DNA from: a virus
IMG/VR virus record: IMGVR_UViG_3300041991_000045
Location: 1 to 37,998 of that record
Direction: 5' to 3' (one strand)
DNA length: 37,998 nucleotides
Shown here: positions 19,814 to 34,271 of the stretch, piece by piece
How positions within the stretch are numbered: position 1 is the stretch's first letter
Layout: each line of letters opens with the position of its first letter
The notes under the pieces: model-generated
Database searches by the model: none
Told to the model about the DNA's origin: nothing
Seen by the model: only the letters and a program-made list of their open reading frames with translations
Made by a program: the position numbers and the translations under genes

Positions 19814-20995
19814 TCAGCCGGTGAGCGTGGTGGCGAAGTCGGCCAGGTACTTGTCGGTGATGCGCTGGTACAGCGTGAGATCCTCCAGCGGCGGCACCGG
19901 CGTGTAGTCGTAGTCGATGGCGAGCTTGCCGCCGGCCAGGCTGGTGGTGTCGTTTTCGCTCGGGTCGTACCAGGCGCTGCCGCCGAGGATGTAGCCGCCC
20001 GACTTCAGCTGGCGGAACTCCGCGTTGATGGTCTCGAGGATGTCCTTGACCAGGCTGGGGTACATCGACTTGTCGGCGGCCCACATGAAGCCGTTGGCGA
20101 TGGTGTCGGCAAGCACCTGCGCGGTGCGGGTGGCACTCTCGAAGATGAAGGCCGGGTCGTCGCTGCAGGTGCGCTCGCCCCAGAAGCGGTAGCCGTTGGA
20201 GTTGATCAGGGTGGTGACGTCGCCCGCGTTGAGCACGCCGGCATCGGTGTCCGGGTTTTGCAGATCCCAGCTGACGTCGCGGCTGATGCCGGTGACGCCA
20301 CCGACGGCGACATTGCTGAGGGTTTTCTGCCAGCCCTGTACCTCGTCGATCTGCGCGCGCAGACCGAGCGCGTAGGCCACGGCAGGCACCTCGATGGTGG
20401 TGCTGGTGGTGGTGTCGTAGGCCATGAAGTTCGGCCATATCGGCATGACCTCGCGGCCGCTGAAGTTGGCCCGGTAGGCGGTGGCCTCGGTGACCGTGGT
20501 GCAAGCGTCGCAGTAGATGTAGGCCATGCCACGCAGCGCGGCGGCGATCGTCTGCAGGGCTACGGCGACCGGCTGGGTGTCAAGATCCGGCGCGCCGATG
20601 ATGCGCGGCTTGACGCCGTTGACACCCTGCGAGGCGAGCAGTGCCTGGGCGCCGGTGAGGCGACCGTTGGCGTCGGTACCGCCGACGACGTTGCTGGTGG
20701 TGGCCGCGGCGTCGATGCCCTTGGCCACGCGTACCACCACGACCAGCGGCTTGCACTGCGCGGCAATGGCGACCAGCGCCTTGAGCAGCGTGTTGCCGAC
20801 CGCGTTGGTGCCGGCCTTGGCCTGGGCGGCGACGACGTCGGTGACCAGCACCGGCGTATCGAGCGGGAACATGGCGGCGTCAGCATCCTCGGCGACGGCG
20901 ACCAGGCCGATGACCGCGGTGGAGGCGACGCTAAGGGTACGGGCGCCGGTGGTGACTTCAACGACACGGACGCCGTGGTGGTAATCGGTGGGCAT
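19814..20995 (-). CDS. FI: Tail sheath protein gpFI
   Basis: This 393-aa contractile sheath subunit matches P2 gpFI (about 396 aa). It starts MPTDYHHGVRVVEVTTGARTLSVASTAVIGLVAVAEDADAAMFPLDTPVLV. It includes the TLSNVAVGGVTGISRDVSWDLQNPDTDAGVLN and NGYRFWGERTCSDDPAFIFESATRTAQVLADTI segments typical of phage sheaths. It lies upstream of FII in the same operon. Confidence 0.96.
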   Translation of the reverse strand: MPTDYHHGVRVVEVTTGARTLSVASTAVIGLVAVAEDADAAMFPLDTPVLVTDVVAAQAKAGTNAVGNTLLKALVAIAAQCKPLVVVVRVAKGIDAAATTSNVVGGTDANGRLTGAQALLASQGVNGVKPRIIGAPDLDTQPVAVALQTIAAALRGMAYIYCDACTTVTEATAYRANFSGREVMPIWPNFMAYDTTTSTTIEVPAVAYALGLRAQIDEVQGWQKTLSNVAVGGVTGISRDVSWDLQNPDTDAGVLNAGDVTTLINSNGYRFWGERTCSDDPAFIFESATRTAQVLADTIANGFMWAADKSMYPSLVKDILETINAEFRQLKSGGYILGGSAWYDPSENDTTSLAGGKLAIDYDYTPVPPLEDLTLYQRITDKYLADFATTLTG

Positions 20996-21019
20996 GGTGA
21001 TACCTCGGTGGTGGTGCCG

Positions 21020-21376
21020 TTAGCCGGCGCTGAGTGAGAGGGGAACAGTGATGCTGCCGGCGACGGCGACGGCGGTATCGGTGCGGGTGCCTTCGAGCGT
21101 GACCACGAAGGCGCCGGCGCTGGTGCCGGCATTGATGGATACGCGGGTGAGGCGAATGCGCGGCTCCCAGCGCATCAGCGCGCCGGCAATGGCGGCGTAC
21201 AGGCGCACGCGGGTAGCGGCGTTGGCGGGCTGGTCGACCAGAAGGGGCAGCAGGCTGCCGTAGTCGCGGCGCATCACGCGCGAGCCGACCGGCGTGGTGA
21301 GGATGTCGCCGATGCTCTGCGCCAGGTGCGCGACGCCCTCGATGGCCTTGCCGGTGGTGCGGTCGACGCCGCGCAT
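21020..21376 (-). CDS. W: Baseplate wedge protein gpW (gp25-like)
   Basis: This 118-aa protein is the P2 gpW / T4 gp25 homologue that joins the sheath to the baseplate. The signature is IGDILTTPVGSRVMRRDYGSLLPLLVDQP followed by RLYAAIAGALMRWEPRIRLTRV. The start codon shares one base with the stop of V. P2 gpW has 115 aa. Confidence 0.95.
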   Translation of the reverse strand: MRGVDRTTGKAIEGVAHLAQSIGDILTTPVGSRVMRRDYGSLLPLLVDQPANAATRVRLYAAIAGALMRWEPRIRLTRVSINAGTSAGAFVVTLEGTRTDTAVAVAGSITVPLSLSAG

Positions 21377-21993
21377 TACTGGGGAGGCCCGCTGACGGCG
21401 CCGCCGGACTGCACGCCGGTGTGCTTGTGATTCTTGAGGCTCTTGCCGCCACCGATGACGTCGGTGTTTGCCGTGACCGTCGCGTCGGCCTGGACGTCGT
21501 CGACCACGTGCAGCTTGGCACTGAGCGTGGCGTCGTCGCTGACGCTGAGCTTGCCGATGATGGTGACGTCGCCGGTGAGGGTGATACCGCCGGTGGCGGT
21601 GATGTCGGCCTTGCCGCCATCGGGCAGCGTGGCGAGCAGCTGATGCGCCTCGGGGTCATAACTTACCACGGCGCCGTCGGGGTACGCGGTGACGTGCGCG
21701 GTATCGCTGCCGGCGGGCATGGGGTTGGCATCGCTGTACAGGCCGGCCAGCACGACGCCGCGGGTGGTTTCTCCGCCGGGGCACAACACCAGCACCTGCT
21801 CGCCGACGCTGGGCGCCCAACGCGTGCGGGCGTCGCCAGCGCGTTGCGCAAACCACGGCAAAGGACGGGTGAGCAGTGCGCCAGTGCTCACCGTGCACAG
21901 CGCGGCCGCATGATCGACGGACGCGACGACGCCGAAGCGCAGGACGTTCTCGAGGCGGCGGGCGATGTCAGCAACGGGAGGCATGACCGGCAT
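21376..21993 (-). CDS. V: Baseplate spike protein gpV
   Basis: This protein of about 205 aa is the membrane-piercing spike. It has an N-terminal OB-like domain (LENVLRFGVVASVDHAAALCTVSTG, WAPSVGEQVLVLCPGG) and a beta-helical stalk of repeated VT-x-x-(V/I)-x strands. It ends with a conserved NHKHTGVQSGG-x-SGPP tip, whose HxH motif binds iron in the P2 spike. Two starts are possible, ATG 21993 and ATG 21984. The shorter one fits the proposed late promoter at 21991-22051 better. Confidence 0.95.
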   Translation of the reverse strand: MPVMPPVADIARRLENVLRFGVVASVDHAAALCTVSTGALLTRPLPWFAQRAGDARTRWAPSVGEQVLVLCPGGETTRGVVLAGLYSDANPMPAGSDTAHVTAYPDGAVVSYDPEAHQLLATLPDGGKADITATGGITLTGDVTIIGKLSVSDDATLSAKLHVVDDVQADATVTANTDVIGGGKSLKNHKHTGVQSGGAVSGPPQ

Positions 21994-22051
21994 GCTGCGC
22001 AGCCGCGCTTGCGCATGCGAGGCGCGGCACGTGTACGAGTGGGCTGGTACA
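21991..22051 (-). promoter_or_regulatory. Candidate late promoter A, upstream of V
   Basis: The dyad TGTACGA-N6-TGGTACA (22032-22051; one base off the consensus of the other two) lies in a longer inverted repeat with 14-bp arms (22025-22062). The element CATGCTGCGCA (21991-22001), identical in all three sites, has its centre 45 bp from the dyad centre. In P2 the Ogr/Delta dyad is centred near -55. This would place the start of transcription near 21987 and drive V, W, FI, FII, E, T, U and D. Confidence 0.7.
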
Positions 22052-22088
22052 CGTGCCGCGGCTTATGCGTACCTTTGCCAGCGCGCCA

Positions 22089-22796
22089 TCACACGCCAGA
22101 CGTCGCGTCGCAGTAGACGCCGAAGGTGGTGGTGATGACCGCGCCCGTGGACACGCGCTTGATGCGAAGCGTCATGGCCAGGTGCGAGCCGTGGTCGTTG
22201 GGGCTGGTGGCACCGCACGCCGCACTCATCGAGAATACCCGTGACGTGCTGAGCGACTGGTAGCTCGCGGCCGGGTTGGTGATGCTTGCCCCAGCTGACT
22301 GGGTGATGGTATCGGCATACGCGAACTGGATCTGGCAGTCGGCCACGGACCAGCCGGAAGGAAGCCACATGCCCGACGCGGGGAAGCCGCCGATGGATCC
22401 ACCACTACCGCCACCGCTGGAAACGACGGTCGCAGTGAGTGAATAGGCCCCGGTGTTGTTGAACGCCAGAGCGCAATTTACGCTCGCCCCCGGCTGTCCG
22501 GAGACCCCGGACGCGGTCGCGCTCACCGAATATATATTGCCCTGTATTCCCGCAATGCTGTAAGCCACCGTGCCCTTCTTTGCCCAGAGCGCAGAAAAAT
22601 CACGGCCGTCGGCGAGGCGGTAGCCGTGGTTAGGCGCGGCGGTGCCGTGGCTCAACGCGGCGAACTTGATCAGCACGCCAGACTCGTCGCGGTAGCCGAC
22701 GGACCCGCTCGACGCGGTGGGGCCGTCGCCGAAGGTGTCGGGCTCGTAGACGTCCCACGGGGTCAGTCCGGCCGCGTTGGCGTAGCGAAAGGCCAT
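22089..22796 (-). CDS. Tail-associated hypothetical protein (235 aa)
   Basis: No family is recognised. The protein starts MAFRYANAAGLTPWDVYEPDTFGDGPTASSGSVGYRDESGVLIKFAALSHGTAAPNHGYRLADGRDFSALWAKKGT. It has a Ser/Gly linker in the middle (SSGGGSGGSIGG) and a beta-rich C-terminus. It lies behind the fibre gene H in the position where P2 has the fibre assembly gene G, but does not look like gpG. A role as an accessory tip or fibre protein is likely from position. It ends just before late promoter A. Confidence 0.75.
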   Translation of the reverse strand: MAFRYANAAGLTPWDVYEPDTFGDGPTASSGSVGYRDESGVLIKFAALSHGTAAPNHGYRLADGRDFSALWAKKGTVAYSIAGIQGNIYSVSATASGVSGQPGASVNCALAFNNTGAYSLTATVVSSGGGSGGSIGGFPASGMWLPSGWSVADCQIQFAYADTITQSAGASITNPAASYQSLSTSRVFSMSAACGATSPNDHGSHLAMTLRIKRVSTGAVITTTFGVYCDATSGV

Positions 22797-22798
22797 GG

Positions 22799-23152
22799 TC
22801 AGGCGCCCGCCGATTCCGCCGCGGCGCGCTCGTTGAACAGGATGTCGTATGCGGCCTTGATGACCATGGCCATGCCAGCGGTACTTACGCCGGAGAGGTC
22901 GACGCCGGTTACTGGATCCAGCGTGCCGGCCGCGCAAAACGTGCGCGTGGCGATATCGGCTATGTCAGCCTGCAGGATGTTGAAGCCGCCGGCCAGCGGC
23001 TGGTAGGCGTCGTCGACGTAGAGGCTTTCCCGTGCCTGAAACGACACGCTCCCGCCGCCGGTCTGCGGATCGTAGAAGATATGGGTCTGCTCGGCGATCA
23101 TCTCGGCGGTGACGCCGGTGGCGATGGTACGAATACGGGCGTTCGTGGTCAT
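22799..23152 (-). CDS. Tail-region hypothetical protein (117 aa)
   Basis: The protein begins MTTNARIRTIATGVTAEMIAEQTHIFYDPQTGGGSVSFQARESLYVDDAYQPLAGG and looks like a compact alpha/beta protein. No family is recognised. Its ATG overlaps the end of the fibre gene by four bases, and its stop lies two bases before the next start. It is probably co-made with the fibre, perhaps as part of the fibre network or its chaperone. Confidence 0.75.
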   Translation of the reverse strand: MTTNARIRTIATGVTAEMIAEQTHIFYDPQTGGGSVSFQARESLYVDDAYQPLAGGFNILQADIADIATRTFCAAGTLDPVTGVDLSGVSTAGMAMVIKAAYDILFNERAAAESAGA

Positions 23153-24870
23153 GATGCGTGAGCCTCCAAGGCTTCGATGCGGGCGAGCAGTTGGTCGATG
23201 CGGATGTCAGCGCCAAGCGCGCATTCGAGCGCGGCGCCGGCTTTGTCGATGGCGAGCATGTCCTCGGGGTCTTCCGGCACTTTGACGAACTGCGGCGCAT
23301 GCAAGAGCATGTCTTGTGCGGTCGTCCCGGTGTCGAAACCGTTATCGCTGTTGCGCAACCACTGCGACCACAGCGGCACCAGCTTGGCGGCGAGACTAGT
23401 GTCGACTGCACGCGGCTCAATGTCGTGTTTTGCCCGTCGGTCAGATAGCTGATACCCGCCGCTTGCGATGACCGAACCATTCACCACTAGCCCACCGGTA
23501 TGGGCGGTGCATATGTTTACGCCGTTCGCCTGCAAGGTCACGTCGGAACCGCGCACAAGCAGGGATTTGTAAGTCGCCGTCGATCGGTCGTAGCAAAGAA
23601 TTTGCCCGGTGTTATCGGTGTAGTAATAGACTTCGACGCCACCGCCAGTCCATGCGGTCGGGTTCGTAGGGTTTCCCGACGAACGAAATCCCGTTGATGT
23701 CGTAAGGTTCCCCGTGAAGTCAGCCCCCGAAAGCAAGGCCCGCAGAGCAAGCGCGTTCGTCACGGTCGCGGCGAAATTCGCGTCGTCGCCCATGGCGTCG
23801 GCCAGCTCTTTCAGCGTATCGAGCGCTCCGGGTGAGCCATTGACCAGGGCATTGACCGCGGCGGTGATCTGAGCCGTCACCGAGGTCTGGACTGGTCGAG
23901 CGTCCAGCGCGGTTTGCAAGCCGTTGACGTCGGCGATCGCGTGCGAGTGGATGACTGGAGCGGCGCCGATGTCGGTGAGCACCTGCGCGGGCGTTTTGAC
24001 TCCGAAGGCACCGGTACCGTTGCCGAGCAGGTAGCTGCCCGCAGTGAACGTGCCAGCACCGGTACCGCCGCGGGCGACGGCCAGCGTGCCGCTGGTGATT
24101 TCCGAGGCGGAGTGGTTGTGCGCCGACGGCGTGAACGTGGGCGGCTTGTTGGCGAAGTTGTCCCAGTCGAGGTAGTAGGCGCCATGCTGGCCGTCGAGCA
24201 AATCGGCGTCGAGGCCGTTGCCGGTGCCGGTGTCGAACGAGGCCGCGCCGCGAATGCCCAGCGCGGTGACGAAGGCCAGCGTGGTGACCTTGTTGAGCAG
24301 GGTCTTGACGAAGCTGGTCGGCGCCGCGGCACCCAGGCGATCGTCGAGGACGGCCTTGACACTTTTCGGTGTCACGGCGCGGATCGCGTCGGTACCCGTG
24401 ATGGTTTCGGCGTCCGTGGCCAGCTCGACCACGCCTTGCACGTCGGTAGTGGCCGGCGGGTTGAGGAAGTTGGTGTCGCCGAAGGTGATGGAGGCGGCGT
24501 CGATGTCGGCGAAGATGATGTCGGTGGCCAGCAGCAGCATGGCCAGCGACGACTTCTCCAGGATGGCGGTGGCCTGGCCGTACACGCCGAACAGGGTGCC
24601 ATCGGCGAGGAACAGGCCGAAGCCGAACAGCGAATAGGTGTCGGCGCTGTCATCACGGATGATGGCGTGGATGGTATCCGCGGCAACGGCGGCACCACCG
24701 AAGGTGGACAGCTGCTTGAGCTGACCCGGCAGCGCGGTCAGCGCCGTGGTCGGCACGAAGGCGGTGGCGGTGACGCCGATCTTGTCGACGGTGACCGGCA
24801 ACGTGCCGGTGTTGCCAGCGTTGACCAGGGCCGCGCGGCCGGCGTCGGTGACGGTAATCTTGAGGGTCAT
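23149..24870 (-). CDS. H: Tail fibre protein gpH-like with S74 intramolecular chaperone
   Basis: The N-terminal 150 residues of this 573-aa protein match the P2 gpH baseplate-attachment part (MTLKITVTDAGRAALVNAGNTGTLPVTVDKIGVT). The shaft has repeated short motifs including GLDADLLDGQHGAYYLDWDNFANKPPTF and GTLAVARGGTGAGTF. From residue 476 on, SDRRAKHDIEP starts a Peptidase S74 / endosialidase-type chaperone domain of about 98 residues ending in a coiled coil. Such domains trimerise the fibre and then cut themselves off at the Ser. P2 gpH has about 669 aa and no such domain, so receptor specificity is likely different. Confidence 0.92.
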   Translation of the reverse strand: MTLKITVTDAGRAALVNAGNTGTLPVTVDKIGVTATAFVPTTALTALPGQLKQLSTFGGAAVAADTIHAIIRDDSADTYSLFGFGLFLADGTLFGVYGQATAILEKSSLAMLLLATDIIFADIDAASITFGDTNFLNPPATTDVQGVVELATDAETITGTDAIRAVTPKSVKAVLDDRLGAAAPTSFVKTLLNKVTTLAFVTALGIRGAASFDTGTGNGLDADLLDGQHGAYYLDWDNFANKPPTFTPSAHNHSASEITSGTLAVARGGTGAGTFTAGSYLLGNGTGAFGVKTPAQVLTDIGAAPVIHSHAIADVNGLQTALDARPVQTSVTAQITAAVNALVNGSPGALDTLKELADAMGDDANFAATVTNALALRALLSGADFTGNLTTSTGFRSSGNPTNPTAWTGGGVEVYYYTDNTGQILCYDRSTATYKSLLVRGSDVTLQANGVNICTAHTGGLVVNGSVIASGGYQLSDRRAKHDIEPRAVDTSLAAKLVPLWSQWLRNSDNGFDTGTTAQDMLLHAPQFVKVPEDPEDMLAIDKAGAALECALGADIRIDQLLARIEALEAHAS

Positions 24871-25418
24871 CAGGCGGCATCCGCAGTAAGTTGCAGGCGG
24901 CGATAGACCACCGGCCGGGCATAGGCAGCGACGCCGATGCGGCCGCTGGCGACGACGCCTTGCGTGAAGGTGAAGTGGCTGCGCACAGGCTTGGTGCGCT
25001 CGATTTCACCGATGACGTCGTCGACGTACTCGGCGCTGGCGTCCTCGCCGCCCTGACCGGACAACGCGAGCACCATGGCGAATGTGTGAGGGATGCCCCG
25101 CGGCGACTGCTGCCACCACTCGGTGAGCTCGACGGAGCCGCCGAAGCTTTCGGTGACGTCATGCAGGCTTTTGGCGGTGCCCTTGTGGCGCTGGATCTCG
25201 ATGGCCGCGGCGACGCGGGCGCGCTTGACCTCGATGGGCCAGTAGCTTTTCCAGCTGTCGATGGACAGGCCCCACGCCAGCCACGGCAGCAGGTTCTCGG
25301 GACAGGTTTGCGGGTTCCACAGGTTGTCGATCGCCACCGGGACATCGGCAATGCGCGCGGTGGTGGCCTCGACCGCCTGTTCGCTGGCGGTGGCGTTGGG
25401 CGGCAGCAGGCTATTCAT
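24870..25418 (-). CDS. I: Baseplate protein gpI
   Basis: This 182-aa protein matches P2 gpI (about 176 aa), tail protein I of the baseplate that connects to the fibres. The signature is LPPNATASEQAVEATTARIADVPVAIDNLWNPQTCPENLLPWLAWGLSIDSWKSYWP, then RHKGTAKSLHDVTESFGG. It overlaps J by eight bases and shares one base with H. Confidence 0.95.
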   Translation of the reverse strand: MNSLLPPNATASEQAVEATTARIADVPVAIDNLWNPQTCPENLLPWLAWGLSIDSWKSYWPIEVKRARVAAAIEIQRHKGTAKSLHDVTESFGGSVELTEWWQQSPRGIPHTFAMVLALSGQGGEDASAEYVDDVIGEIERTKPVRSHFTFTQGVVASGRIGVAAYARPVVYRRLQLTADAA

Positions 25419-26403
25419 CGACGCCGCCGTAGTCGAGCGCGATGCCGGTGCACCAGGGCGCCTGGGTGCGGCCGATCACCAGGTTGTCGGTCGGCGAGGT
25501 GAGATCCACGCGCTGGATGCCCGGTACCGTGATGGCGGCATGCAGCCCGCTGTAGGTGATGTCGCGGCCGAGCTTGTGGCAGTCAGTGAGGTACTGCTGC
25601 AGGCTGGCATCGGATGCCGCCAACACGACGGCGCTGTCGGGGCCGGCGAAGGTGTAGCGGGTGCCGGCAATGGCGAAGTTGACGATCTCGGCGGTCTGCG
25701 CGGTGACGTTGTCGGTCATCGGGCGGATGTCGTCGGCGCTTACCGCGGCCTCCACGGTGGCGAGCAGTGCGGCGTCGGCCGTGCCATCGCCCGCGCGGGC
25801 CAGCACGGTGACGATGACGTCGCCAGGCCATGCGGCCGCATCGAGGGCCGCGTCCATGGCGGTGACCAGGGTGGGGTCGGCGCTGTTGGCGGTGAGGACG
25901 TCGGACACGATGGCCCGGATGTCGTCGGGCGTGGGGCTGGTGGCGCTGGCGTCCAGCACGCCGGGGTCGGCGCTGAGTGCGTGGTACTTGTAGGCGCCCT
26001 CGGGGCCGGCAACGCTGAAGCCTTCCGGCGCCAGGGTGATGCGGTAACGGTAGTCGTCGTCGAGCTCGTACGTGGGCGCGATCGAGTGCGTCGGGTCGCC
26101 CGGGTCGAGCATCAGGCGGGTCACGCCGAGCAAGGCGCCGAGGTTGTCCAGATCGGTGTCGACGGCGCTGGCCAGCATCACGGCCTTGGCGGCGTCGTTG
26201 ACGCGCTGGCGAATGATCAACTCGCGGAAGGCCGCGACCTCGAGGATCTTGTATGCCGGGTCGGATTCGACCATGGCGGTGAACGATGGATCGCGCGCGA
26301 CCAGGTCGGCCAGCATCTCGGAAAGGATCTGCTCAAACGACAGCGCCTCGACCACAGCGGGCGGCGGCAGGCGCGAAAGATCGACGGCGGTGAAGCCGGC
26401 CAT
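25411..26403 (-). CDS. J: Baseplate wedge protein gpJ
   Basis: This 330-aa protein matches P2 gpJ (about 302 aa) of the baseplate J family. The signature is LSFEQILSEMLADLVARDPSFTAMVESDPAYKILEVAAFRELIIRQRVNDAAKAVMLASAVDTDLDNLGALLGV. The rest holds the typical YRYRITLAPEGFSVAGPEGAYKYHAL strand region. It is the first gene of its unit, 26 bp after the conserved element of promoter B. No good Shine-Dalgarno sequence precedes ATG 26403. Confidence 0.95.
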   Translation of the reverse strand: MAGFTAVDLSRLPPPAVVEALSFEQILSEMLADLVARDPSFTAMVESDPAYKILEVAAFRELIIRQRVNDAAKAVMLASAVDTDLDNLGALLGVTRLMLDPGDPTHSIAPTYELDDDYRYRITLAPEGFSVAGPEGAYKYHALSADPGVLDASATSPTPDDIRAIVSDVLTANSADPTLVTAMDAALDAAAWPGDVIVTVLARAGDGTADAALLATVEAAVSADDIRPMTDNVTAQTAEIVNFAIAGTRYTFAGPDSAVVLAASDASLQQYLTDCHKLGRDITYSGLHAAITVPGIQRVDLTSPTDNLVIGRTQAPWCTGIALDYGGVDE

Positions 26404-26428
26404 GTCAGCGGAGGTGGCGGTGGCGGGT

Positions 26429-26499
26429 CATGCTGCGCATGGTGCGGAGCCGACAACGCATGGCGCGAGGCGGTGGACGTGTACCAGTTCATTGGTACA
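26429..26499. promoter_or_regulatory. Candidate late promoter B between J and com
   Basis: The dyad TGTACCA-N6-TGGTACA lies at 26480-26499 and the element CATGCTGCGCA at 26429-26439. Here the distance between centres is about 55 bp, one helical turn more than at sites A and C. It should drive J, I, H and the two following genes leftward. The palindrome is symmetric and a partly similar sequence (GCGCGAGGCAACATG, 26524-26538) lies on the other side, so it may also drive com rightward. The rest of 26404-26688 holds nothing else recognisable. Confidence 0.68.
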
Positions 26500-26688
26500 C
26501 GTGACGCGCGGCACGGACTCGTTCGCGCGAGGCAACATGACGGCCTTCGAGTGGAGCGGCCGACACCGCGCGTCAACGCGATGTCGGCCACCCAGCACCG
26601 CAGAAACACCTGCAGGCCAGACCGTAGGCTCCACACTCCGTCGACGGAGCCCGTCGAGGCTATCACGCCCGTCAACAGGATCTAACGG

Positions 26689-26919
26689 ATGCAGGATGTT
26701 CGCTGTTCGCGGTGCGCGAGATTGCTTGCGCGCGCCGCACGTTTCGACGTGATCGAGATCAAGTGTCCGCGTTGCGGCACGATCAATTCATTGAGGGCCG
26801 TTCCGAGCCCCCTGCCAGCGAGCCAGGGAGCCCCGAACGAGATGCGACATGCCCGACAAGAACCTGCCCTACACCCTGCACCAGGGCGACGCCCTGCAGG
26901 TACTGCGCGGACTGGCTGA
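26689..26919 (+). CDS. com: Com-like zinc-finger regulator of the adjacent methyltransferase
   Basis: The first 38 residues of this 76-aa protein carry the Com signature: VRCSRCARLLARAARFDVIEIKCPRCGTINSLRA, with C6, C9, C26 and C29 as zinc ligands. In phage Mu, Com binds the mom message and opens an inhibitory RNA structure so that mom can be translated. The C-terminal half is proline- and arginine-rich and overlaps the start of the methyltransferase by 71 bases in another frame, much like com and mom in Mu. The gene runs against the surrounding tail genes. Confidence 0.9.
   Translation: MQDVRCSRCARLLARAARFDVIEIKCPRCGTINSLRAVPSPLPASQGAPNEMRHARQEPALHPAPGRRPAGTARTG
26800..26838 (+). other. Hairpin before the methyltransferase start
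   Basis: Two 15-base arms (26800-26814 and 26824-26838) can pair at 12 of 15 positions around a 9-base loop. The foot of the hairpin is ten bases before ATG 26849, so it would reach into the ribosome binding region. In Mu a comparable structure in the mom leader is the target of Com. The function is inferred by analogy. Confidence 0.5.
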
Positions 26920-27592
26920 CGCCAGCGTCGATGCGGTGATCACCGACCCGCCGTATTGCTCCGGATCGCAAACGATGGCGGGGCGCGCGCGGCCGACCGG
27001 TGAGAAGTACATCAACAGCGAAGCCAAGCGGCAGATGCCCGATTTCGAGGGTGACTTTCGCGACCAGCGCGGCTTTCTTGCATGGGCCAGCCAGTGGCTG
27101 GCGGAGTGCCACCGGGTGACCCAGCCCGGCGGGCAGATGCTGGCGTTTATCGACTGGCGCATGTTGCCGACAATGACGGACGCGGTGCAGGTGGCCGGCT
27201 GGGTGTGGCAGGGCATCGTGGTGTGGGACAAGACCGGCGGCTGCCGGCCGCAACTTGGGCGATTCCGTAGCCAGGCCGAGTACGTGGTGTGGGGTAGCCG
27301 AGGGCCGATCGACACGAAGGCGCACCCGGTGGTGTTGCCGGGCGTGCTGTCAGTGCACCCGCAGCTGGGCGGCAAGCATCACCAGGTGGGCAAGCCGGAG
27401 TCGCTGATGGAGAAGCTGGTGGCGATCGTGCCGCCGGCGAGCACGGTGCTTGACCCGTTCATGGGATCGGCGACCACCGGAGTGGCGGCGTTGCGGGCCG
27501 GGCACCGGTTTGTGGGTGCGGAGATGTCGCCGGGCTATTTCGACGTCGGCAAGCAGCGATTGCGTGACGAGATCGAGCGACAGCAACGCTGA
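26849..27592 (+). CDS. Beta-class N4-cytosine/N6-adenine DNA methyltransferase
   Basis: This 247-aa protein methylates DNA amino groups with S-adenosylmethionine. The catalytic motif VITDPPY (D33-Y36) is near the N-terminus and the cofactor motif LDPFMGSATTG (starting near 201) near the C-terminus, the order of the beta class. GAEMSPGYFDVGKQRL follows as in other members. The start lies inside com and has only a weak Shine-Dalgarno sequence (GAG seven bases upstream), which agrees with Com-dependent translation. Late expression would methylate phage DNA shortly before packaging. Confidence 0.93.
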   Translation: MPDKNLPYTLHQGDALQVLRGLADASVDAVITDPPYCSGSQTMAGRARPTGEKYINSEAKRQMPDFEGDFRDQRGFLAWASQWLAECHRVTQPGGQMLAFIDWRMLPTMTDAVQVAGWVWQGIVVWDKTGGCRPQLGRFRSQAEYVVWGSRGPIDTKAHPVVLPGVLSVHPQLGGKHHQVGKPESLMEKLVAIVPPASTVLDPFMGSATTGVAALRAGHRFVGAEMSPGYFDVGKQRLRDEIERQQR

Positions 27593-27600
27593 TGGCACCC

Positions 27601-27636
27601 GGTGGCCTGCCATGCTGTGAGGCGTGGCAGGTCACC
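27601..27636. terminator. Strong stem-loop between convergent genes (possible bidirectional terminator)
   Basis: The arms 27601-27612 and 27625-27636 pair at 11 of 12 positions around a 12-base loop. They sit exactly in the 46-bp gap between the end of the rightward methyltransferase and the end of leftward gene S. There is no T-tract, so true Rho-independent termination is uncertain. It may instead block convergent transcription or stabilise both 3' ends. Confidence 0.5.
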
Positions 27637-27638
27637 GA

Positions 27639-28097
27639 TCAGCGGGACAGGTGGTCGATCAGGGTGTCACGGATCATGGCGCGGTCGTGGCCGGTGAAGC
27701 CGAGCAGGCGCCGCTGGGCGTAACGCACGCGCGGGCCGTTGGGGCTGACATTGTCGACCTCGCCGTATTGGTGCACGGCGGCGATGCGCGCGGCGTGACC
27801 GACGAAGGCCACGGTGGCGGCGGACGGTGTGGCGCGGGCCTTGAGCCAGCGCGATGTGCGCAACTTGGCGAACATGGCCGCTTGCTTGATGCGACCCTTT
27901 TTGCCGCGCAGATCCTTGCGCGCCTTGCGCTCGACGAATGGCTGGCCATCTGGATCGAGCTGCGCCTTGATGCGCTGCTGCTGGCTGCGGCGAAGTTGGG
28001 TGGCGATGGCCTGGGCGACCTTGCGGCGACCCGACGGCGCGAGTTTCAGCAGCAGCCCAGCCGCCCAGTCCTCGAGGAGGGCCAGGTCGTCGCTCAT
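27639..28097 (-). CDS. S: Tail completion protein gpS
   Basis: This 152-aa protein matches P2 gpS (150 aa), needed for tail terminator and head-joining assembly. The signature is LEDWAAGLLLKLAPSGRRKVAQAIATQLRRSQQQRIKAQLDPDGQPFVERK, then AAVHQYGEVDNVSPNGPRVRYAQRRLLGFT. ATG 28097 overlaps the stop codon of R. Confidence 0.95.
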   Translation of the reverse strand: MSDDLALLEDWAAGLLLKLAPSGRRKVAQAIATQLRRSQQQRIKAQLDPDGQPFVERKARKDLRGKKGRIKQAAMFAKLRTSRWLKARATPSAATVAFVGHAARIAAVHQYGEVDNVSPNGPRVRYAQRRLLGFTGHDRAMIRDTLIDHLSR

Positions 28098-28588
28098 GCG
28101 GGCGAATCCCACTCGGCGACCAGCTGGTCAGCGACGCCGGGGCCGGTCACGTAGAGCTGCCAGTGGCCGGGCGGATACGCGCCCTCGGGCTGCGGCTCGT
28201 CGACATGGGTGATGGTGAGCACGCCGTCGGCGGAGTGCGCCACGATGACGCGCTCGGTGAGCTGCAGCTTGATGCTGAGATCGCAGCGGGCGTTGTCGAT
28301 GATGTCGGCCTCGAAGCGGATGCCCTCGCGGCGCTTGTCGACGTTGTCCATCAGCTCGGACTGGTTGACGCTGACCCACATCAGCAGCGGCACCATCAGC
28401 GTGTCGGGGTCGCCGCCGAAGTCGGTGATGATGATGTTGAGGGTGTAGGCGTACTCGAACGACAGGCCGGGCGCGTAACTGGCATGCAGGGCGCCGTTGT
28501 CGATGAACACCAGGAACCGGTCCGGATCGTTCGCCAGATCAGGCATGGCCGCGACCAGCGCGGCGCGCAGGGTGTCGGGCTTTTTCAC
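28094..28588 (-). CDS. R: Tail completion protein gpR
   Basis: This 164-aa protein matches P2 gpR (155 aa). It starts MKKPDTLRAALVAAMPDLANDPDRFLVFIDNGALHASYAPGLSFEYAYTLNIIITDFGGDPDTLMVPLLMWV. It works with gpS to finish the tail. ATG 28588 overlaps the end of the spanin gene by four bases. Confidence 0.95.
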   Translation of the reverse strand: MKKPDTLRAALVAAMPDLANDPDRFLVFIDNGALHASYAPGLSFEYAYTLNIIITDFGGDPDTLMVPLLMWVSVNQSELMDNVDKRREGIRFEADIIDNARCDLSIKLQLTERVIVAHSADGVLTITHVDEPQPEGAYPPGHWQLYVTGPGVADQLVAEWDSPA

Positions 28589-29082
28589 TTCGCCGGCTCC
28601 GGTTCGGTGTTGGCGCGGATCCAGTCCTGCAGCGAGACTACTTGAGCGGCGGTGGCGTGGCAGGTGGTGTAGTTGTGGATGATGGTGCCGGTGGCGGCAG
28701 AGAGCGCAACGCCGCTGGGCTGCGCATCAGCAGCTCCGGCGGTGTCGGGCAGCGCAGTGGCCGCGGCTGCTGCGTCGTGCAGCCGAACAAAGCCGAGAGG
28801 GAGAGTGCAAGCAGCATCATCGTGAGCCGTGACATAGACGGGTACCTTGCGGATGAGGGTGGCTCCGACCTCGTGCACGACCTGCACGCGATCGACGTAT
28901 CGGGTGACGACCTTTTCGCTGACCTTGGACTGCACCAGGCGGCCGGCGAGGATGGACTCGGCGCCCTCGGCCACCTCGGCGCGATGGGTGGCGCTGGTGA
29001 CACGGTGCTCGCTGACGACGACGTATCCGATGATGGCGGCGACCAGGCCGAGCAGGATCAGGGCTTTGGTGAGGATGCTCAT
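28585..29082 (-). CDS. Rz: Inner-membrane spanin (Rz / LysB-like)
   Basis: This 165-aa protein has one N-terminal membrane segment (ILTKALILLGLVAAIIGYVVV, residues 3-23) and then a periplasmic helix (SATHRAEVAEGAESILAGRLVQSKVSEKVVTRYVDRVQVVHE). This is the layout of i-spanins, which join with the outer-membrane lipoprotein to fuse both membranes at lysis. The gene contains the complete Rz1 frame. ATG 29082 overlaps the stop of the small membrane gene. Confidence 0.85.
   Translation of the reverse strand: MSILTKALILLGLVAAIIGYVVVSEHRVTSATHRAEVAEGAESILAGRLVQSKVSEKVVTRYVDRVQVVHEVGATLIRKVPVYVTAHDDAACTLPLGFVRLHDAAAAATALPDTAGAADAQPSGVALSAATGTIIHNYTTCHATAAQVVSLQDWIRANTEPEPAK
28638..28835 (-). CDS. 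Rz1: Outer-membrane spanin lipoprotein (Rz1 / LysC-like), nested in Rz
   Basis: This 65-aa protein lies fully inside the Rz gene in another frame. It starts MSRLTMMLLALSLSALFGC, a signal peptide with lipobox LFGC (Cys19 would be lipidated). The mature part is proline-rich (PRPLRCPTPPELL, PPPAPSSTTTPPATPPPLK), as in Rz1. The nested arrangement is the classical lambda Rz/Rz1 one. Confidence 0.88.
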   Translation of the reverse strand: MSRLTMMLLALSLSALFGCTTQQPRPLRCPTPPELLMRSPAALRSLPPPAPSSTTTPPATPPPLK

Positions 29083-29216
29083 GCGTGGGTACCCAGCAGG
29101 AGGCCGAGCCAGTGGTAGCCGGCGTAGCCGATGACCATGATGGCGACAGCCAGGGCGACACCGGCAAGGCACGCTTGGCCCAGAACGACCCATTCGCCGC
29201 GTGATGGCAGGTTCAT
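29079..29216 (-). CDS. Very small membrane protein in the lysis cassette (45 aa)
   Basis: The protein reads MNLPSRGEWVVLGQACLAGVALAVAIMVIGYAGYHWLGLLLG. It has one membrane segment and few charged residues. The ATG overlaps the endolysin stop codon and the TGA overlaps the Rz start codon, which supports translation. Possible roles are an accessory holin, an antiholin or a pinholin-like factor; none is shown by the sequence. Confidence 0.72.
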   Translation of the reverse strand: MNLPSRGEWVVLGQACLAGVALAVAIMVIGYAGYHWLGLLLGTHA

Positions 29217-30016
29217 GCGGGCACCAAGGCGGTATGGCGGGCGTAGGCGCGTGCGAGCTTGGTGTCGTAGAGGTTTTCGGCGTAGGCCGGGCCGTTGTAG
29301 ATCTTGGCGAAGGTGGCCCACTTGCGGGTGCGCAGGGCCTTGAGCAGATCGGCGTCGAGCTGAACGAATGCGCTGAAGGCGAACAGGTGCTGCGCCTCGC
29401 TGGTCTCGAACACTTTGGCCATGTGCGTTGCGCTCTCGTAGCCGAGTTCCTTGGCGTGGTATCCCATGATCTGGAATCGCCCCCAGCTGCAGCTGGCGTA
29501 GGCCGCCTCGCGGTGGATGGATGCAGCCTGCGCCAGACGCGGGTATTCACCGACGCCGCCGACGTAGCCTCCGCGATGCTGGCTCAAGATGCTGTCGGGC
29601 ACTCGCACGCTGGCCGGGTCGATGCCTGCAGCGACAAGCTCGCGCCAGAAGACATGGCGCTCGAACAGGATGACCACGCGCCCGTCGGGCAAATAGCCGC
29701 CGTTCGGGCTCTCGACTTCGATCACTGCTTGGATTGCTGCGACGTCGCATCCGAGGTCATCAGCGACGCGCGCGATGGTCTCCTGGGTGAGCGCGCGAGG
29801 ATCTACCACGCCTAGCAACGCCGCCTGCGTTCGCGGGCCGGCGATGCCGTCGTCCACCATGCCCTTGGCCTGCTGGTAGGCGCGCACGGCGGCCGTGGTG
29901 GCCTCGTCGAGGTGGCCGGTGGTGTCAACGGTAAAGCCGGCGCGCGTCAGCCGCTGCTGCAGCACGGTGACGTCGGCGCCGGTGTCACCAGCGCGCAGGG
30001 TGCGTGGGTTGTTCAT
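29213..30016 (-). CDS. Endolysin: peptidoglycan-binding plus N-acetylmuramidase domains
   Basis: The first 68 residues of this 267-aa protein form a PG_binding_1 domain (LRAGDTGADVTVLQQRLTRAGFTVDTTGHLDEATTAAVRAYQQAKGMVDDGIAGPRTQAAL). Residues 75-265 match the N-acetylmuramidase family (DUF3380), with AAIQAVIEVESPNGGYLPDGRVVILFERHVFW and ASCSWGRFQIMGYHAKELGYES. The likely catalytic Glu is in IEVES (100-102). It cleaves the cell wall at lysis. No export signal is seen, so it needs a holin. P2 gpK is a different, shorter enzyme. Confidence 0.93.
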   Translation of the reverse strand: MNNPRTLRAGDTGADVTVLQQRLTRAGFTVDTTGHLDEATTAAVRAYQQAKGMVDDGIAGPRTQAALLGVVDPRALTQETIARVADDLGCDVAAIQAVIEVESPNGGYLPDGRVVILFERHVFWRELVAAGIDPASVRVPDSILSQHRGGYVGGVGEYPRLAQAASIHREAAYASCSWGRFQIMGYHAKELGYESATHMAKVFETSEAQHLFAFSAFVQLDADLLKALRTRKWATFAKIYNGPAYAENLYDTKLARAYARHTALVPA

Positions 30017-30293
30017 CGTGGGTTGTCCGGATGATGGTGGCGACGTTGCCGCGGGCGGAGAGACTGAGCACGCAAAGCACGAGGGATATGCCGACGTCGC
30101 CGAGGTGAATGTGGCTGGCCGGGTACAGGCCGAGCACGATGCCCAGGGCGGTGCTGCCGGTGCTGACGATCAGCAGCCAGGCGTAGGCGCTGACCAGCGG
30201 GCGGTAGCGGGCGCCGTTGCGGCTGTAGATGAGCAGGCGGACGCAGGCGGTGGCGTTGGTGACGAACAGCAGCAGTGCGAGCAGGTGATCCAT
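29985..30293 (-). CDS. Three-transmembrane holin (Phage_holin_3-like)
   Basis: This 102-aa protein has hydrophobic segments at about 3-24 (HLLALLLFVTNATACVRLLIYS), 33-57 (LVSAYAWLLIVSTGSTALGIVLGLY) and 62-82. It matches the 3TM holin family in size and start. It would form the hole that lets the endolysin reach the wall. The gene overlaps the endolysin start by 32 bases and shares one base with the next gene. Confidence 0.88.
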   Translation of the reverse strand: MDHLLALLLFVTNATACVRLLIYSRNGARYRPLVSAYAWLLIVSTGSTALGIVLGLYPASHIHLGDVGISLVLCVLSLSARGNVATIIRTTHDEQPTHPARW

Positions 30294-30655
30294 TACGGGC
30301 CTCCGCGGCGTAGCAGGCTGGCGAGCCAGGCGGTGATGTCGATGGTCTTGATGCGCTCGATCAGCTGGACGGTGACGGCGATGACCAGGGCGGCCGCAAG
30401 AAATGCGGCGACGCCGGACTCCTGTATGGGCGTTTGCCGCAACACCATGGGCGCGGCGAGGTAGCCCATGATCCAGCTGATGATCAGGTAGCTGAAGCGC
30501 GACAGCATGGAGACGTCGCGGGCGTGCAGCGCCATCAGCGCCGCACCGGCAAACGCTCCGACGATGGCGTTGCCGTCGGCGCCGGGCAGCAGCGAGGACA
30601 GCGTGACGCTGGCGGCGAGAAAGGCGACGGTGGTGGTGGTGGTGGGTTCGGCCAT
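30293..30655 (-). CDS. Second holin-like membrane protein (120 aa)
   Basis: The protein begins MAEPTTTTTVAFLAASVTLSSLLPGADGNAIVGAFAGAALMALHARDVSMLSRFSYLIISWIMGYLAAPMVL. Two or three membrane segments can be seen, with a basic C-terminus (SLLRRGG). It stands behind X in the place of P2 gene Y (holin). A holin/antiholin pair with the gene at 29985 is likely. ATG 30655 has a weak AGGGGA upstream. Confidence 0.82.
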   Translation of the reverse strand: MAEPTTTTTVAFLAASVTLSSLLPGADGNAIVGAFAGAALMALHARDVSMLSRFSYLIISWIMGYLAAPMVLRQTPIQESGVAAFLAAALVIAVTVQLIERIKTIDITAWLASLLRRGGP

Positions 30656-30668
30656 CGTGTTTCCCCTG

Positions 30669-30878
30669 TCAGTTCCACAGCTGCACGAGCACAGCCTCGG
30701 TTTGGGTGGCTTGGGTGGCGTCGGGCAGGTTGACCGCCGTGCCCATGGGCAGGAACGGGCCGAGCGAGGCGAGGCCCTGGTTGGCTGCCAGCGCGGCCTC
30801 GGTGACGCTGCCGGTACGGCCGAGCACGCGCTGGCACAAGGCGTCGATGGTTTCACCCTGCAGCGCGCGGACAAGCAT
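30669..30878 (-). CDS. X: Tail protein gpX
   Basis: This 69-aa protein matches P2 gpX (67 aa), a LysM-like tail protein. The signature is GETIDALCQRVLGRTGSVTEAALAANQGLASLGPFLPMGTAVNLPD. The ATG shares one base with the stop of L. Its place between L and the holins is as in P2. Confidence 0.95.
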   Translation of the reverse strand: MLVRALQGETIDALCQRVLGRTGSVTEAALAANQGLASLGPFLPMGTAVNLPDATQATQTEAVLVQLWN

Positions 30879-31342
30879 CAGATCAGCTCCACGTCGGAGC
30901 GCGGCCGGCCGAGGATGTCGCGGATGGCGAAGCGCAGGTTGCGCCGGTAGTCGTCGACGGTGGTGTCGAGATCGTCGGCGCGGCGAATACCGGCGGCGGT
31001 GGTGTCGAAGTTACGGTACCGCTCGATGAGCTCGGCCTGCGCGCTGGAGTACACGGCACGGCGGTACAGCAGCACCAGGCGCGACTCGCCGGCGATGGTC
31101 TTGGCTGGCACGTCGGCAAGGGTGACGTAGCCGAGGTCGACCTGCGCCTGTTGCCAGATGGCGAGCAGATCCTCGACGCCGGCCATGGCAATGGAGAGGC
31201 ACTCGCCGAGGCGGTCGTCGGTGACGGTGGCGTCGATGCGCATGACGGTGCGCGCGGTGGCGAGGTTGATGGACGGGTACCAGTCGCCGGAGCTTATTTC
31301 CGTGGCGTCCGGTGAGGGCGCGGTGGCGACGAATCCAGTCAT
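30878..31342 (-). CDS. L: Head completion/stabilisation protein gpL
   Basis: This 154-aa protein matches P2 gpL (about 169 aa), which closes the filled head. The pattern is SGDWYPSINLATARTVMRIDATVTDDRLGECLSIAMAGVEDLLAIWQQ followed by RLVLLYRRAVYSSAQAELIERYRNFDTTAAG. It lies between M and X as in P2. Confidence 0.94.
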   Translation of the reverse strand: MTGFVATAPSPDATEISSGDWYPSINLATARTVMRIDATVTDDRLGECLSIAMAGVEDLLAIWQQAQVDLGYVTLADVPAKTIAGESRLVLLYRRAVYSSAQAELIERYRNFDTTAAGIRRADDLDTTVDDYRRNLRFAIRDILGRPRSDVELI

Positions 31343-31408
31343 GGGAACCTCAAATAGGTGCGGCGGTGATCGGTGGGTCGTGCAAGGGAGAGAGGGCCTG
31401 CACTAGCA

Positions 31409-31428
31409 CCGAGCCGCCGCGGGCTCGG
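31409..31428. other. Stem-loop between L and M
   Basis: CCGAGCC (31409-31415) pairs with GGCTCGG (31422-31428) around a 6-base loop, seven bases from the M stop codon in the 92-bp gap before L. No T-run follows on either strand. It may tune message stability or partial termination within the capsid operon. Confidence 0.35.
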
Positions 31429-31434
31429 GTGAGC

Positions 31435-32103
31435 TCAGTTGACGGGGGGCGTGGTGGCAGACAGCTGCTTTTTCAGCTTCTGGATCTGCTGGGTGACGCC
31501 GCACCGCGCGTTCAGTCGCAGCGCCTGCTGCAAGTGGTCGATGGCCTGCGCGGGGGCGGTGTCGCGCAGGGACAGGCCGATGGCCTTGTGGAGTTTGGCG
31601 CGCACCTCATCCGGCATGTCGCGCCCTTGGGTAAGTGCACCGACCTGCAGCAGCTGGTCGGCGGTGACGGTGCTGTCCGCGGTGCCGGCCTGGTCGGCAA
31701 TTTCCTCGACGAGCAAGGTGGCCAGGTCGCGCTGGTAGTGCTCGGGCAGCTTGATGTCGTGGGTGAGCATGTGCGCAGCCATGGCCAGCGCGCCGGCAAT
31801 GTCGCCAGTGTCGATATGCCAGACCATGACGGTGGCGAGCACGTCGTCCTGCGCGGGCTGGTCGGCCTGCATGACGCCGTCGATCCACGCGGCGTAGTCG
31901 GGCAGCAGCTTGCGCTTGAGCTCGATCTTTGCCTGCAGGGACTGGATCGCCTTGAGCGACCGCTTGTCGGTGGCCAGCTTGGCGAGCATGAGCTCGTAGG
32001 CGCTTCCGGTGGCGGTGGGCGTGGCCGTGCCCTGCACGACGGCTTTGTCGTGCGCCTGGGCGGCTTGGATGCGCTGGACGTGGCGCTGGGCGGGGCTGGA
32101 CAT
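31435..32103 (-). CDS. M: Terminase small subunit gpM
   Basis: This 222-aa protein matches P2 gpM (about 247 aa), the cos-recognising endonuclease subunit. The pattern is SPAQRHVQRIQAAQAHDKAV, then YELMLAKLATDKRSLKAIQSLQAKIELKRKLLPDYAAWIDGVM, then TVMVWHIDTGDIAGALAMAAHMLTHDIKLPEHYQRDLATLLVEEIAD. It works with P to cut and package DNA. ATG 32103 has GGAGAG upstream. A stem-loop (about 32131-32155) lies between N and M. Confidence 0.94.
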   Translation of the reverse strand: MSSPAQRHVQRIQAAQAHDKAVVQGTATPTATGSAYELMLAKLATDKRSLKAIQSLQAKIELKRKLLPDYAAWIDGVMQADQPAQDDVLATVMVWHIDTGDIAGALAMAAHMLTHDIKLPEHYQRDLATLLVEEIADQAGTADSTVTADQLLQVGALTQGRDMPDEVRAKLHKAIGLSLRDTAPAQAIDHLQQALRLNARCGVTQQIQKLKKQLSATTPPVN

Positions 32104-32201
32104 GGCGGGCTCTCCTCGTTCGGTGATCGTCCCGCCCGCCTGGTTGCAGGCGAGCGGGGCTTTCACTTGCTTCTCTGCGGGGTTGTGGGTGACGGACGCG
32201 G

Positions 32202-33206
32202 TTACGAGATGACGATGTTCTCGACCAGGGCGACACCACCGTAGTTTTCGACGACGTAGGCGTCGTTGGACGACTCGTAGTTCTCGACACGGTCACGCTT
32301 GGGGTTGTCGATCAGCCGGCGACGGCGGGCGCCGTCCTGGTAGTAGATCGACAGGTTGTCCAGCGTGGTGACCAGCACGGTGTTGTCGGGGAAGAACGGC
32401 ACCCGCACGGCCGGTATACCGCCCAGGGTCTTCTGGCTGATGATGATGTCGCTGGCCAGCTCGTTCTCGGCGGTCTGCTGCTGGTTGACGCGCTTGAAGT
32501 ACTTGTCGTGCAACAGCGAGCGACCGCAGATGGCGACCAGCGCCGTGCTATCGCGCAACGGCAGGTCGAGCAGCTCGATTGCGTCCAGCACCATGGCATC
32601 CAGGTTCTCGTAGTCCTTGCCGGCACCGACTTCGACCTTGCCGCTGGCTGCCACGACTTCGAACATCCAGTGCGCCGGCGCGTCGGTTCGGATGTGCTGC
32701 AACCAGCCGGTATTGACGTCCTGCAACAGCGGGTTGGCGACGCGATCGGTGGCGACGGCAGCGCTCGTACCGTTGAAGCCGATCATGATGCGGTCGAGCG
32801 CCTGCTGGTTGATCACCACGTCGCGGCAGCGCGTCTGGAAGTCCGGGAACTTCGCCCACGCGTCCAGCTTGGCGTAGGACAGCGCGGTGTCGAAGTCGGT
32901 CTTCTTGCAGGTGTACGAGTTGCTAGCCATATCGGTCGGATCGGCCGGAACGCGATCGTTCAACGTGGTGTCGGTACGGCCGGCGATGGTGCTGCCGACG
33001 CCGAGCTTGATCTTTTCGCCGGTCTGTTCGACGACGCCGATGATGTTGATCTTGCCGAGGAAGGCGCTGGAGATCTGGATCTGATTTTCCAGTGTCTGCT
33101 GAACAGTCGGCGCCACGCTGAAACTGACGTTGGCGCTGTCGACGCTGTTGAGCTGCGCAACGCGCGTGGCGTACTGGTTGAAGACGATACGGGTTTCGTT
33201 ACGCAT
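32202..33206 (-). CDS. N: Major capsid protein gpN
   Basis: This 334-aa protein matches P2 gpN (357 aa before maturation). It starts MRNETRIVFNQYATRVAQLNSVDSANVSFSVAPTVQQTLENQIQISSAFLGKINIIGV. It also has SYTCKKTDFDTALSYAKLDAWAKFPDF and DRIMIGFNGTSAAVATDR, well-known parts of the family. N-terminal processing by gpO is expected from P2. Confidence 0.96.
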   Translation of the reverse strand: MRNETRIVFNQYATRVAQLNSVDSANVSFSVAPTVQQTLENQIQISSAFLGKINIIGVVEQTGEKIKLGVGSTIAGRTDTTLNDRVPADPTDMASNSYTCKKTDFDTALSYAKLDAWAKFPDFQTRCRDVVINQQALDRIMIGFNGTSAAVATDRVANPLLQDVNTGWLQHIRTDAPAHWMFEVVAASGKVEVGAGKDYENLDAMVLDAIELLDLPLRDSTALVAICGRSLLHDKYFKRVNQQQTAENELASDIIISQKTLGGIPAVRVPFFPDNTVLVTTLDNLSIYYQDGARRRRLIDNPKRDRVENYESSNDAYVVENYGGVALVENIVIS

Positions 33207-33262
33207 GGAATGGCTCCGGTGGCAACTGCGGGGGCGGCAGGATGTGTGGGATGGGTGGCGGG

Positions 33263-34123
33263 TCAGCAGTTGGTTGACGCGAAGCCGTCGCCGCCTGTCG
33301 CTGCCGGGCGCAGCGGGGTCGTCGGGTGGCTTTCGAGCTGGGTGCGCAGTGCCGCGAAGTCGGTATCGGCTTTCGCACGCGCTGACTCGATGGTTTCAAG
33401 CCTCGTGGTGAGATCGGCGAACTGGTCGACCACGCGCTGCGTGGCGGCGTTCTGGCTGGTGGAGAATTGCTCCATCACGTCGGCCAGGCCGGTGAGGGAC
33501 TCGGCGATTTCATTGAACTGGGCGTCGTGACCCTTGGCCTTGCCGGACAGCTTGGTGACCTTTTCCTTGATCGTCTTGAACAAGGTATCGATCGCGGTCT
33601 CGGACGGCTCTTCCTCGAACTCGATCTCGACGGCCTCGGCCACGCTGAACAGGTTGTCGGGCGACTGCTTGCGGTTGGTGAACGGGTTGGCGGCCGGATG
33701 CTGCGCAGCGAACGAAAGCACCTCGGTGCCCAGGCTGGCCGGGCTGTCGGTGACTCCGAGGCCTTGCAGGTAGGCGCGGTTGCTGCTGGCGAAGTTCTGG
33801 TTGACCTCGATGCTGCAATAAATCTTCTGCTTGGCCTTGACCAGCGACACCAGCTCGGTCGTCGGCTCGATCTGCGCGAACAGGGCCATCTTGCCCTTGA
33901 GGTCGCCGTCGGCGATGGGCTCGGCCTTGACGGCGACCACGTCGCCGTAGGCTTTGAACGGGCCGGACGGATCGAAGCCGCGGATGTGCTCGTTGAAGAT
34001 CCGCGCGCCATACGTGGTCGGGTTGTAGGTTGCGGCGATATCGAGCAGCCAGGAGCGTTCGATGTTGCGGCCGTCGGTGGTGGCGCCTTCGACGGCGACG
34101 CGGAAGAATTTGCTCTTGGCCAT
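33263..34123 (-). CDS. O: Capsid scaffold and maturation protease gpO
   Basis: This 286-aa protein matches P2 gpO (284 aa). The N-terminal serine protease part holds D17 (TTDGRN), H46 (FNEHIRGFDPSG) and S104 (IYCSIEVNQNF), in the same arrangement as the P2 catalytic triad. The C-terminal scaffold part from about 190 on is charged coiled coil. It guides shell assembly and then cleaves capsid proteins. GAGGT lies upstream of ATG 34123. It is the first gene of the leftward capsid unit. Confidence 0.95.
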   Translation of the reverse strand: MAKSKFFRVAVEGATTDGRNIERSWLLDIAATYNPTTYGARIFNEHIRGFDPSGPFKAYGDVVAVKAEPIADGDLKGKMALFAQIEPTTELVSLVKAKQKIYCSIEVNQNFASSNRAYLQGLGVTDSPASLGTEVLSFAAQHPAANPFTNRKQSPDNLFSVAEAVEIEFEEEPSETAIDTLFKTIKEKVTKLSGKAKGHDAQFNEIAESLTGLADVMEQFSTSQNAATQRVVDQFADLTTRLETIESARAKADTDFAALRTQLESHPTTPLRPAATGGDGFASTNC

Positions 34124-34164
34124 TGCGGAAACCTCGGGGCGTGGGCGCGGATAGATGACGCGGC

Positions 34165-34266
34165 CATGCTGCGCAGCGCGCGAATAAGCAGCAACGCGGG
34201 GGGTGTGTACCAGCGCCTTGGTACACGTGGCGCGGAATTAGATATGTGGGCGCGTGCGTGACGATG
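34165..34266. promoter_or_regulatory. Candidate divergent late promoter C between O and P
   Basis: The dyad TGTACCA-N6-TGGTACA lies at 34206-34225. To the left, CATGCTGCGCA (34165-34175) has its centre 45 bp away, as at site A. To the right, TGCGTGACGATG (34255-34266) resembles the same element in opposite orientation at an equal distance. One activator site could thus serve both O (leftward) and P (rightward). Confidence 0.7.
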
Positions 34267-34271
34267 CCGGC

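Follow-up and report, generated by a model that had tools for sequence, protein, structure and literature searches.

The question raised by this locus is which signal switches on the late operons of a P2-like virus. In the virus record IMGVR_UViG_3300041991_000045, whose 37,998 bp were analysed as a whole (hereafter the window) and carry a P2-like gene complement, the initial annotation read three palindromes of the form TGTACCA-N6-TGGTACA, each with an 11-bp partner element, as a family of Ogr-activated late promoters whose operator departs from the P2 sequence TGT-N12-ACA. The analyses below suggest that these dyads are very probably operators of the phage's own Ogr-type activator, at Ogr-type late promoters with an N14 variant of the operator. 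This reading is well supported by the recurrence of the dyads, by their fixed distance to -35- and -10-like sequences and by the ogr gene carried in the window, whereas the details of the 11-bp element and of the J promoter were corrected and the arrangement is less novel than it first appeared. The dyads and the genes concerned are as follows:

12627-12926, minus strand: Ogr-like zinc-finger activator, 99 aa, CX2CX22CX4C (PF04606, 41.2 bits against a cut-off of 26.3)
21376-21984, minus strand: V (baseplate spike, PHROG match), heading V-W-FI-FII-E-T-U-D
22032-22051, no strand: putative operator dyad of the V operon, TGTACGA-N6-TGGTACA (one mismatch), with equivalent dyads upstream of V in relatives
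25411-26403, minus strand: J (baseplate, PHROG match), heading the J-I-tail-fibre operon
26480-26499, no strand: putative operator dyad TGTACCA-N6-TGGTACA, between J (leftward) and com/methyltransferase (rightward)
33263-34123, minus strand: O (capsid scaffold/protease, PHROG match), heading the O-S operon
34206-34225, no strand: putative operator dyad TGTACCA-N6-TGGTACA, common to the O and P promoters
34272-36041, plus strand: P (terminase large subunit; PF03237, PF17289, PF06056), with its ATG as the predicted transcription start

FI, T and D also lie on the minus strand. As described in the initial annotation, all three dyads occupy gaps upstream of V, J and O/P and show the spacing TGT-N14-ACA. 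The full sequence is exact at 26480-26499 and 34206-34225, but the V site reads TGTACGAGTGGGCTGGTACA, and because of this single mismatch the sequence first given for all three sites is inexact there. The window contains three copies of the core TGTAC-N10-GTACA, whereas 400 dinucleotide shuffles gave 0.0075 copies on average and never more than 1, and no further good dyad of this type was found elsewhere in the window or near the early genes. The P2 operator consensus TGT-N12-ACA, which none of the three sites matches, is present in the window at chance level (5 vs 4.95 expected). Related loci were collected with J and O queries and by a search for the dyad itself; their rows have common ancestry, so that the counts given below do not represent independent events. 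For the Burkholderia phages KS14 and FLC5, O is annotated longer, so the 300 bp upstream fall short of the promoter. When the equivalent gaps of relatives were aligned, as the initial annotation had proposed, dyads recurred at the V, J and O/P gaps, and across the collected loci TGTAC-Nk-GTACA reached its maximum at k = 10 (23 occurrences, with 7 or fewer at any other k).

Palindromes between operons might instead be RNA hairpins or terminators. The V dyad does fold strongly (-36 kcal/mol, z -5.6), 26 nt past the preceding gene, and the J dyad folds too (z -2.8), but the stability of the O dyad is unremarkable (z -1.5), the three gaps hold no terminator-like site (a GC-rich hairpin followed by a T-run), and the P/O dyad sits between divergent starts, where no transcript ends. 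With the long V arms also not conserved in relatives, this explanation appears extremely improbable; the V dyad alone may have a secondary terminator role. The V palindrome itself reaches from 22023 to 22060 with perfect 14-bp outer arms, longer than an operator requires, and, from its position just after the preceding gene, may also end or protect the message of that gene.

If the dyads are operators, promoter sequences are expected at a set distance from them. With the dyad centre as the sole reference for aligning the upstream regions of relatives, a sigma-70-like core emerged, consisting of T[T/C/A]G at +21 and xANNAT at +44/45, with a spacing of 17-18 bp, predicting transcription starts about 56 bp from the dyad centre. 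Of 41 non-redundant O sites, 40 have TTG 20-21 bp from the centre and 20 have xANNAT at 44-45, about 17 bp beyond the -35; a rule joining both gave zero matches in all shifted controls. Around 82 non-redundant exact dyads in viral contigs, some of which are surely chance matches in unrelated contigs that dilute the peak, SANSAT likewise had its maximum at +44/45 (23 of 164 flanks, against 0-3 elsewhere). Placed by this alignment, the candidate promoter elements of the window are:

21992-21997, minus strand: -10-like CAGCAT of the V promoter, within the 11-mer 21991-22001
22015-22020, minus strand: -35-like TCGCAT of the V promoter, 17 bp from the -10
26429-26439, minus strand: 11-mer at J, not homologous to the V and O copies
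26439-26444, minus strand: -10-like CACCAT of the J promoter, aligned with CACCAT/CAGCAT of L087, L091, L110, L229, L095 and L097 at equal dyad distance
26463-26468, minus strand: -35-like TCGCGC of the J promoter, 18 bp from the -10
34166-34171, minus strand: -10-like CAGCAT of the O promoter, within the 11-mer 34165-34175
34189-34194, minus strand: -35-like TTGCTG of the O promoter, 17 bp from the -10
34260-34265, plus strand: -10-like GACGAT of the P promoter (among the P sites,.A..AT stands out solely at offset 44)

The -10 ends about 49.5 bp from the dyad centre at V, O and P and about 50.5 bp from it at J (measured to its last base), and the dyad centre lies near -55, as in P2, relative to the predicted starts of all four promoters (about 56 bp). 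A generic scan of the three gaps with the E. coli sigma-70 consensus returned zero matches because these cores are too distant from that consensus.

The 11-bp element of the initial annotation, CATGCTGCGCA, is indeed exact at 21991, 26429 and 34165 and occurs nowhere else, and its distances of 45, 55 and 45 bp to the dyad centres were correct, but the three copies are not one homologous element. At V and O it contains the predicted -10, CAGCAT; at J, the -10 would be CACCAT (26444-26439). It also stops short of the transcription start, which it had been thought to reach, spanning about -16 to -6, and the J start, first placed near 26424, is now predicted at about 26432. One could suppose that the 11-mer forms the core promoter in every case and that the J operator simply stands one helical turn farther away: the match is exact, 10 bp is about one turn of DNA, and in L229 and L308 the com side of the J dyad likewise has a -10-like sequence displaced by about 10 bp. 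Yet all relatives with this dyad at J conserve CACCAT or CAGCAT at the ordinary distance, within an element reading GCACCATGC or GCAGCATGC that the window shares (26444-26439). What aligns with the J 11-mer is a different, downstream segment, which in relatives has GCCGGCATG, GCGGGCATG or a similar sequence and does not resemble a -10. A displaced J operator is thus very unlikely. The 55-bp outlier vanishes because the J -10 stands at the ordinary dyad distance, and the exact third copy is probably a coincidence, given that relatives conserve another element and that the stretch already shares GC..GCATG. The J gap also contains, at 26403-26431 on the minus strand, an ATG about 30 nt ahead of the J start codon that opens an 8-codon reading (ATGACCCGCCACCGCCACCTCCGCTGA), a possible short leader peptide; relatives too have an ATG at this position.

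At the third dyad, the geometry extends in both directions. A second, rightward promoter is predicted for P, with GACGAT followed by the P ATG at 34272. The dyad centre, 34215.5, lies midway between this ATG and the predicted O start (34159). P and O would have divergent promoters on one operator, as in P2. Upstream of V, a search that admitted distances of 45-130 bp found the start codon 52.5-65 bp from the dyad centre in 28 of 28 non-redundant cases, so that the ATG would coincide with the start or lie no more than a few bases from it. In the window clade, P resembles V in lying at the predicted start. Both the V and the P messages are therefore predicted to begin at or adjoining their own ATG (V at 21984-21985, P at 34272).

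The J dyad may fire rightwards too, into two genes preceded by a candidate promoter:

26533-26538, plus strand: candidate -10 CAACAT, directed toward com, with a weak -35 in the window
26689-26919, plus strand: Com-like zinc-ribbon protein (PF10122, E 5.9e-17), behind a conserved leader of about 150 nt
26849-27592, plus strand: N6/N4 DNA methyltransferase (PF01555, E 2.5e-30)

On the com side, L329, L331, L298 and L090 have sequences resembling GGCACCATG at 44-51 bp from the dyad centre; in other relatives the -10-like sequence is about 10 bp farther or absent. The com leader (26540-26690, plus strand) is 90% conserved in six related records and strongly folded, with a hairpin at 26558-26589 and a GGCTCC..GGAGCC pairing at about 26627-26651, and might be a translational control element for com. 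An Rfam scan of 20900-34400 gave no match, and among 41 predicted pairs in the six sequences 3 showed double changes, the covariation term adding nothing; with covariation this scant, no RNA family is claimed. A tblastn search for the Com-like protein in named phages found no match.

Whether Ogr reads these operators bears on the gene itself and on its variation. The window encodes a zinc finger of the Ogr/Delta type, with the CX2CX22CX4C cysteine spacing read from the sequence, and 23 of 30 related records encode such a finger as well, 21 of them with a match above the family cut-off. A sequence search for a solved Ogr structure returned chance matches only. In most of these records an ogr gene accompanies the conserved dyads with their fixed geometry. 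Half-sites differ at 0.64 of 7 positions within a genome vs 2.6 between genomes: TGTACCA is found in the window and its close relatives, TGTGCAG in G001, TGTGAAA in sphingomonad phages, and TGTAGAG or TGGAGAG in others. In G001, J is the closest to that of the window (73%), yet Ogr is 43% identical and the operator differs; in G003, with J 66% and Ogr 68% identical, the operator is the same as in the window. These comparisons suggest a matching of Ogr specificity to operator, and at most suggest it because the general test is borderline. In two records, G006 and G007 (L097 and L095), the P/O operator reads GGTACCA while the J operator is still TGTACCA, a difference within the genome that could tune promoter strength.

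Many regulators bind palindromes, and the dyads could be operators of a protein other than Ogr, be it a host factor or a repressor, for example that of phage immunity, the more so as the partial co-variation of Ogr with its operator is only borderline. We consider this highly improbable: the dyads stand about 56 bp upstream of starts at late promoters only, one is common to P and O as in P2, most relatives have Ogr, and neither the rest of the window nor the surroundings of its early genes hold another such dyad. Several observations nevertheless weigh against Ogr-operated late promoters at these sites. Seven of the 30 records have no Ogr match, five of them fragments of less than 21 kb and two (G018 and G027) of 32-40 kb. 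With structural-gene divergence allowed for, the association between Ogr and operator divergence is weak (partial Mantel test, 18 records, partial rank r 0.19, permutation p 0.058). The half-sites stand at N14 instead of the N12 of P2, the P promoter has no recognisable -35, and the position of the com-side promoter is poorly conserved.

On balance, we infer that Ogr, probably as a dimer, would bind TGTACCA-N6-TGGTACA about 56 bp upstream of each start and activate the adjoining weak core of sigma-70 type (T[T/C]G, 17-18 bp, then CA(G/C)CAT or GACGAT) by recruiting the RNA polymerase of the host, presumably via the alpha subunit as in P2. The 22032 dyad would thereby drive V-W-FI-FII-E-T-U-D; the 26480 dyad J-I-fibre and perhaps also com and the DNA methyltransferase; and the 34206 dyad O to S leftwards and P rightwards. 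Through these sites the whole set of virion genes would be switched on jointly. A broader proposal is that the 26480 dyad is a second two-way late switch, with J to the left and, behind its long conserved leader, com-methyltransferase to the right, turning on DNA modification with virion assembly, and that P2-like phages hold many matched Ogr/operator pairs that differ in specificity, the operators of each genome changing together; we advance it tentatively, as possible rather than probable.

Much of this layout has precedents. P2 (Peduovirus P2, NC_001895), with promoters PP, PO, PV and PF, has, like the window, a zinc-finger Ogr and an activator site about 55 bp upstream. Its record annotates one activator site for pO/pP, with starts at 3016 and 3127 symmetric about it as in the window, so that operator sharing by P and O was already known; it also places the V start site at the first base of the V ATG, as predicted here. 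The P2 operator is described as TGT-N12-ACA (PMC3931495), in contrast to TGTACCA with N14; the P2 operons are V-W-J-I-H-G and F, compared with J-I-fibre and V-W-FI..D in the window, and no com/methyltransferase lies at the P2 J site. As predicted here, the window shares the P2 layout, failing only in the N12 spacing.

The Stenotrophomonas phage Smp131 (NC_023588) has the same operon split as the window, with PP'/PO' on one dyad and PJ' and PV' predicted (PMC3931495). Its Ogr has the same CX2CX22CX4C spacing, and its sequence contains TTGCCG-17-GACCAT at O and CAACAT just ahead of a V ATG; its authors give the operator as TGT-N12-ACA, with half-sites different from those of the window (PMC3931495). 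In Smp131 the genes for a translational regulator (com) and a methyltransferase lie behind Q, whereas in the window they lie between S and J; being on the same strand as Q, they would also be late. The promoter coordinates of the paper (PMC3931495) do not fall on these dyads in the RefSeq copy. The annotated V start of Smp131 (L209) looks too late: RefSeq gives 15007, and an ATG about 80 bp upstream (about 14927), right after CAACAT, opens a reading that fits the V N-terminus.

For the Ralstonia phages RSA1 and RSY1, four Ogr-type late promoters were predicted on a palindromic motif, TGTTGT-N13-ACAACA (PMC5694545); their authors report no sigma-70-type promoter there (PMC5694545), in contrast to the clear -35/-10-like core across relatives in the window clade. 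The O promoter of the Pseudomonas phage Sirocco (Citexvirus) has a dyad followed by TTGCTG-17-GAACAT, like the window, but its half-site is TTGTAG with N13. Half-site spacing thus forms a series: N12 in P2 (PMC3931495), N13 in RSA1/RSY1 (PMC5694545) and N14 in the window clade. Sharing of an operator by P and O and the J/V split have already been described (P2, Smp131), and the arrangement is less novel than it first appeared because it is annotated in P2 and was proposed for Smp131 (PMC3931495). The present analysis adds the conserved -35/-10-like core, a J promoter in corrected register, V and P messages predicted to be leaderless, the candidate com promoter, and the pattern of putative operators uniform within and different between genomes.

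For P2-like phages beyond enterobacteria, these results would provide a testable late-promoter anatomy, in which operator, -35, -10 and start stand at fixed distances that can be read from the sequence, and leaderless late messages are suggested as a family trait. The varied letters and spacings of the operators offer a natural collection of activator/operator pairs with which DNA recognition by the Ogr zinc finger could be studied. Late control of the phage DNA methyltransferase is also possible and, if true, DNA modification would be switched on together with virion assembly.

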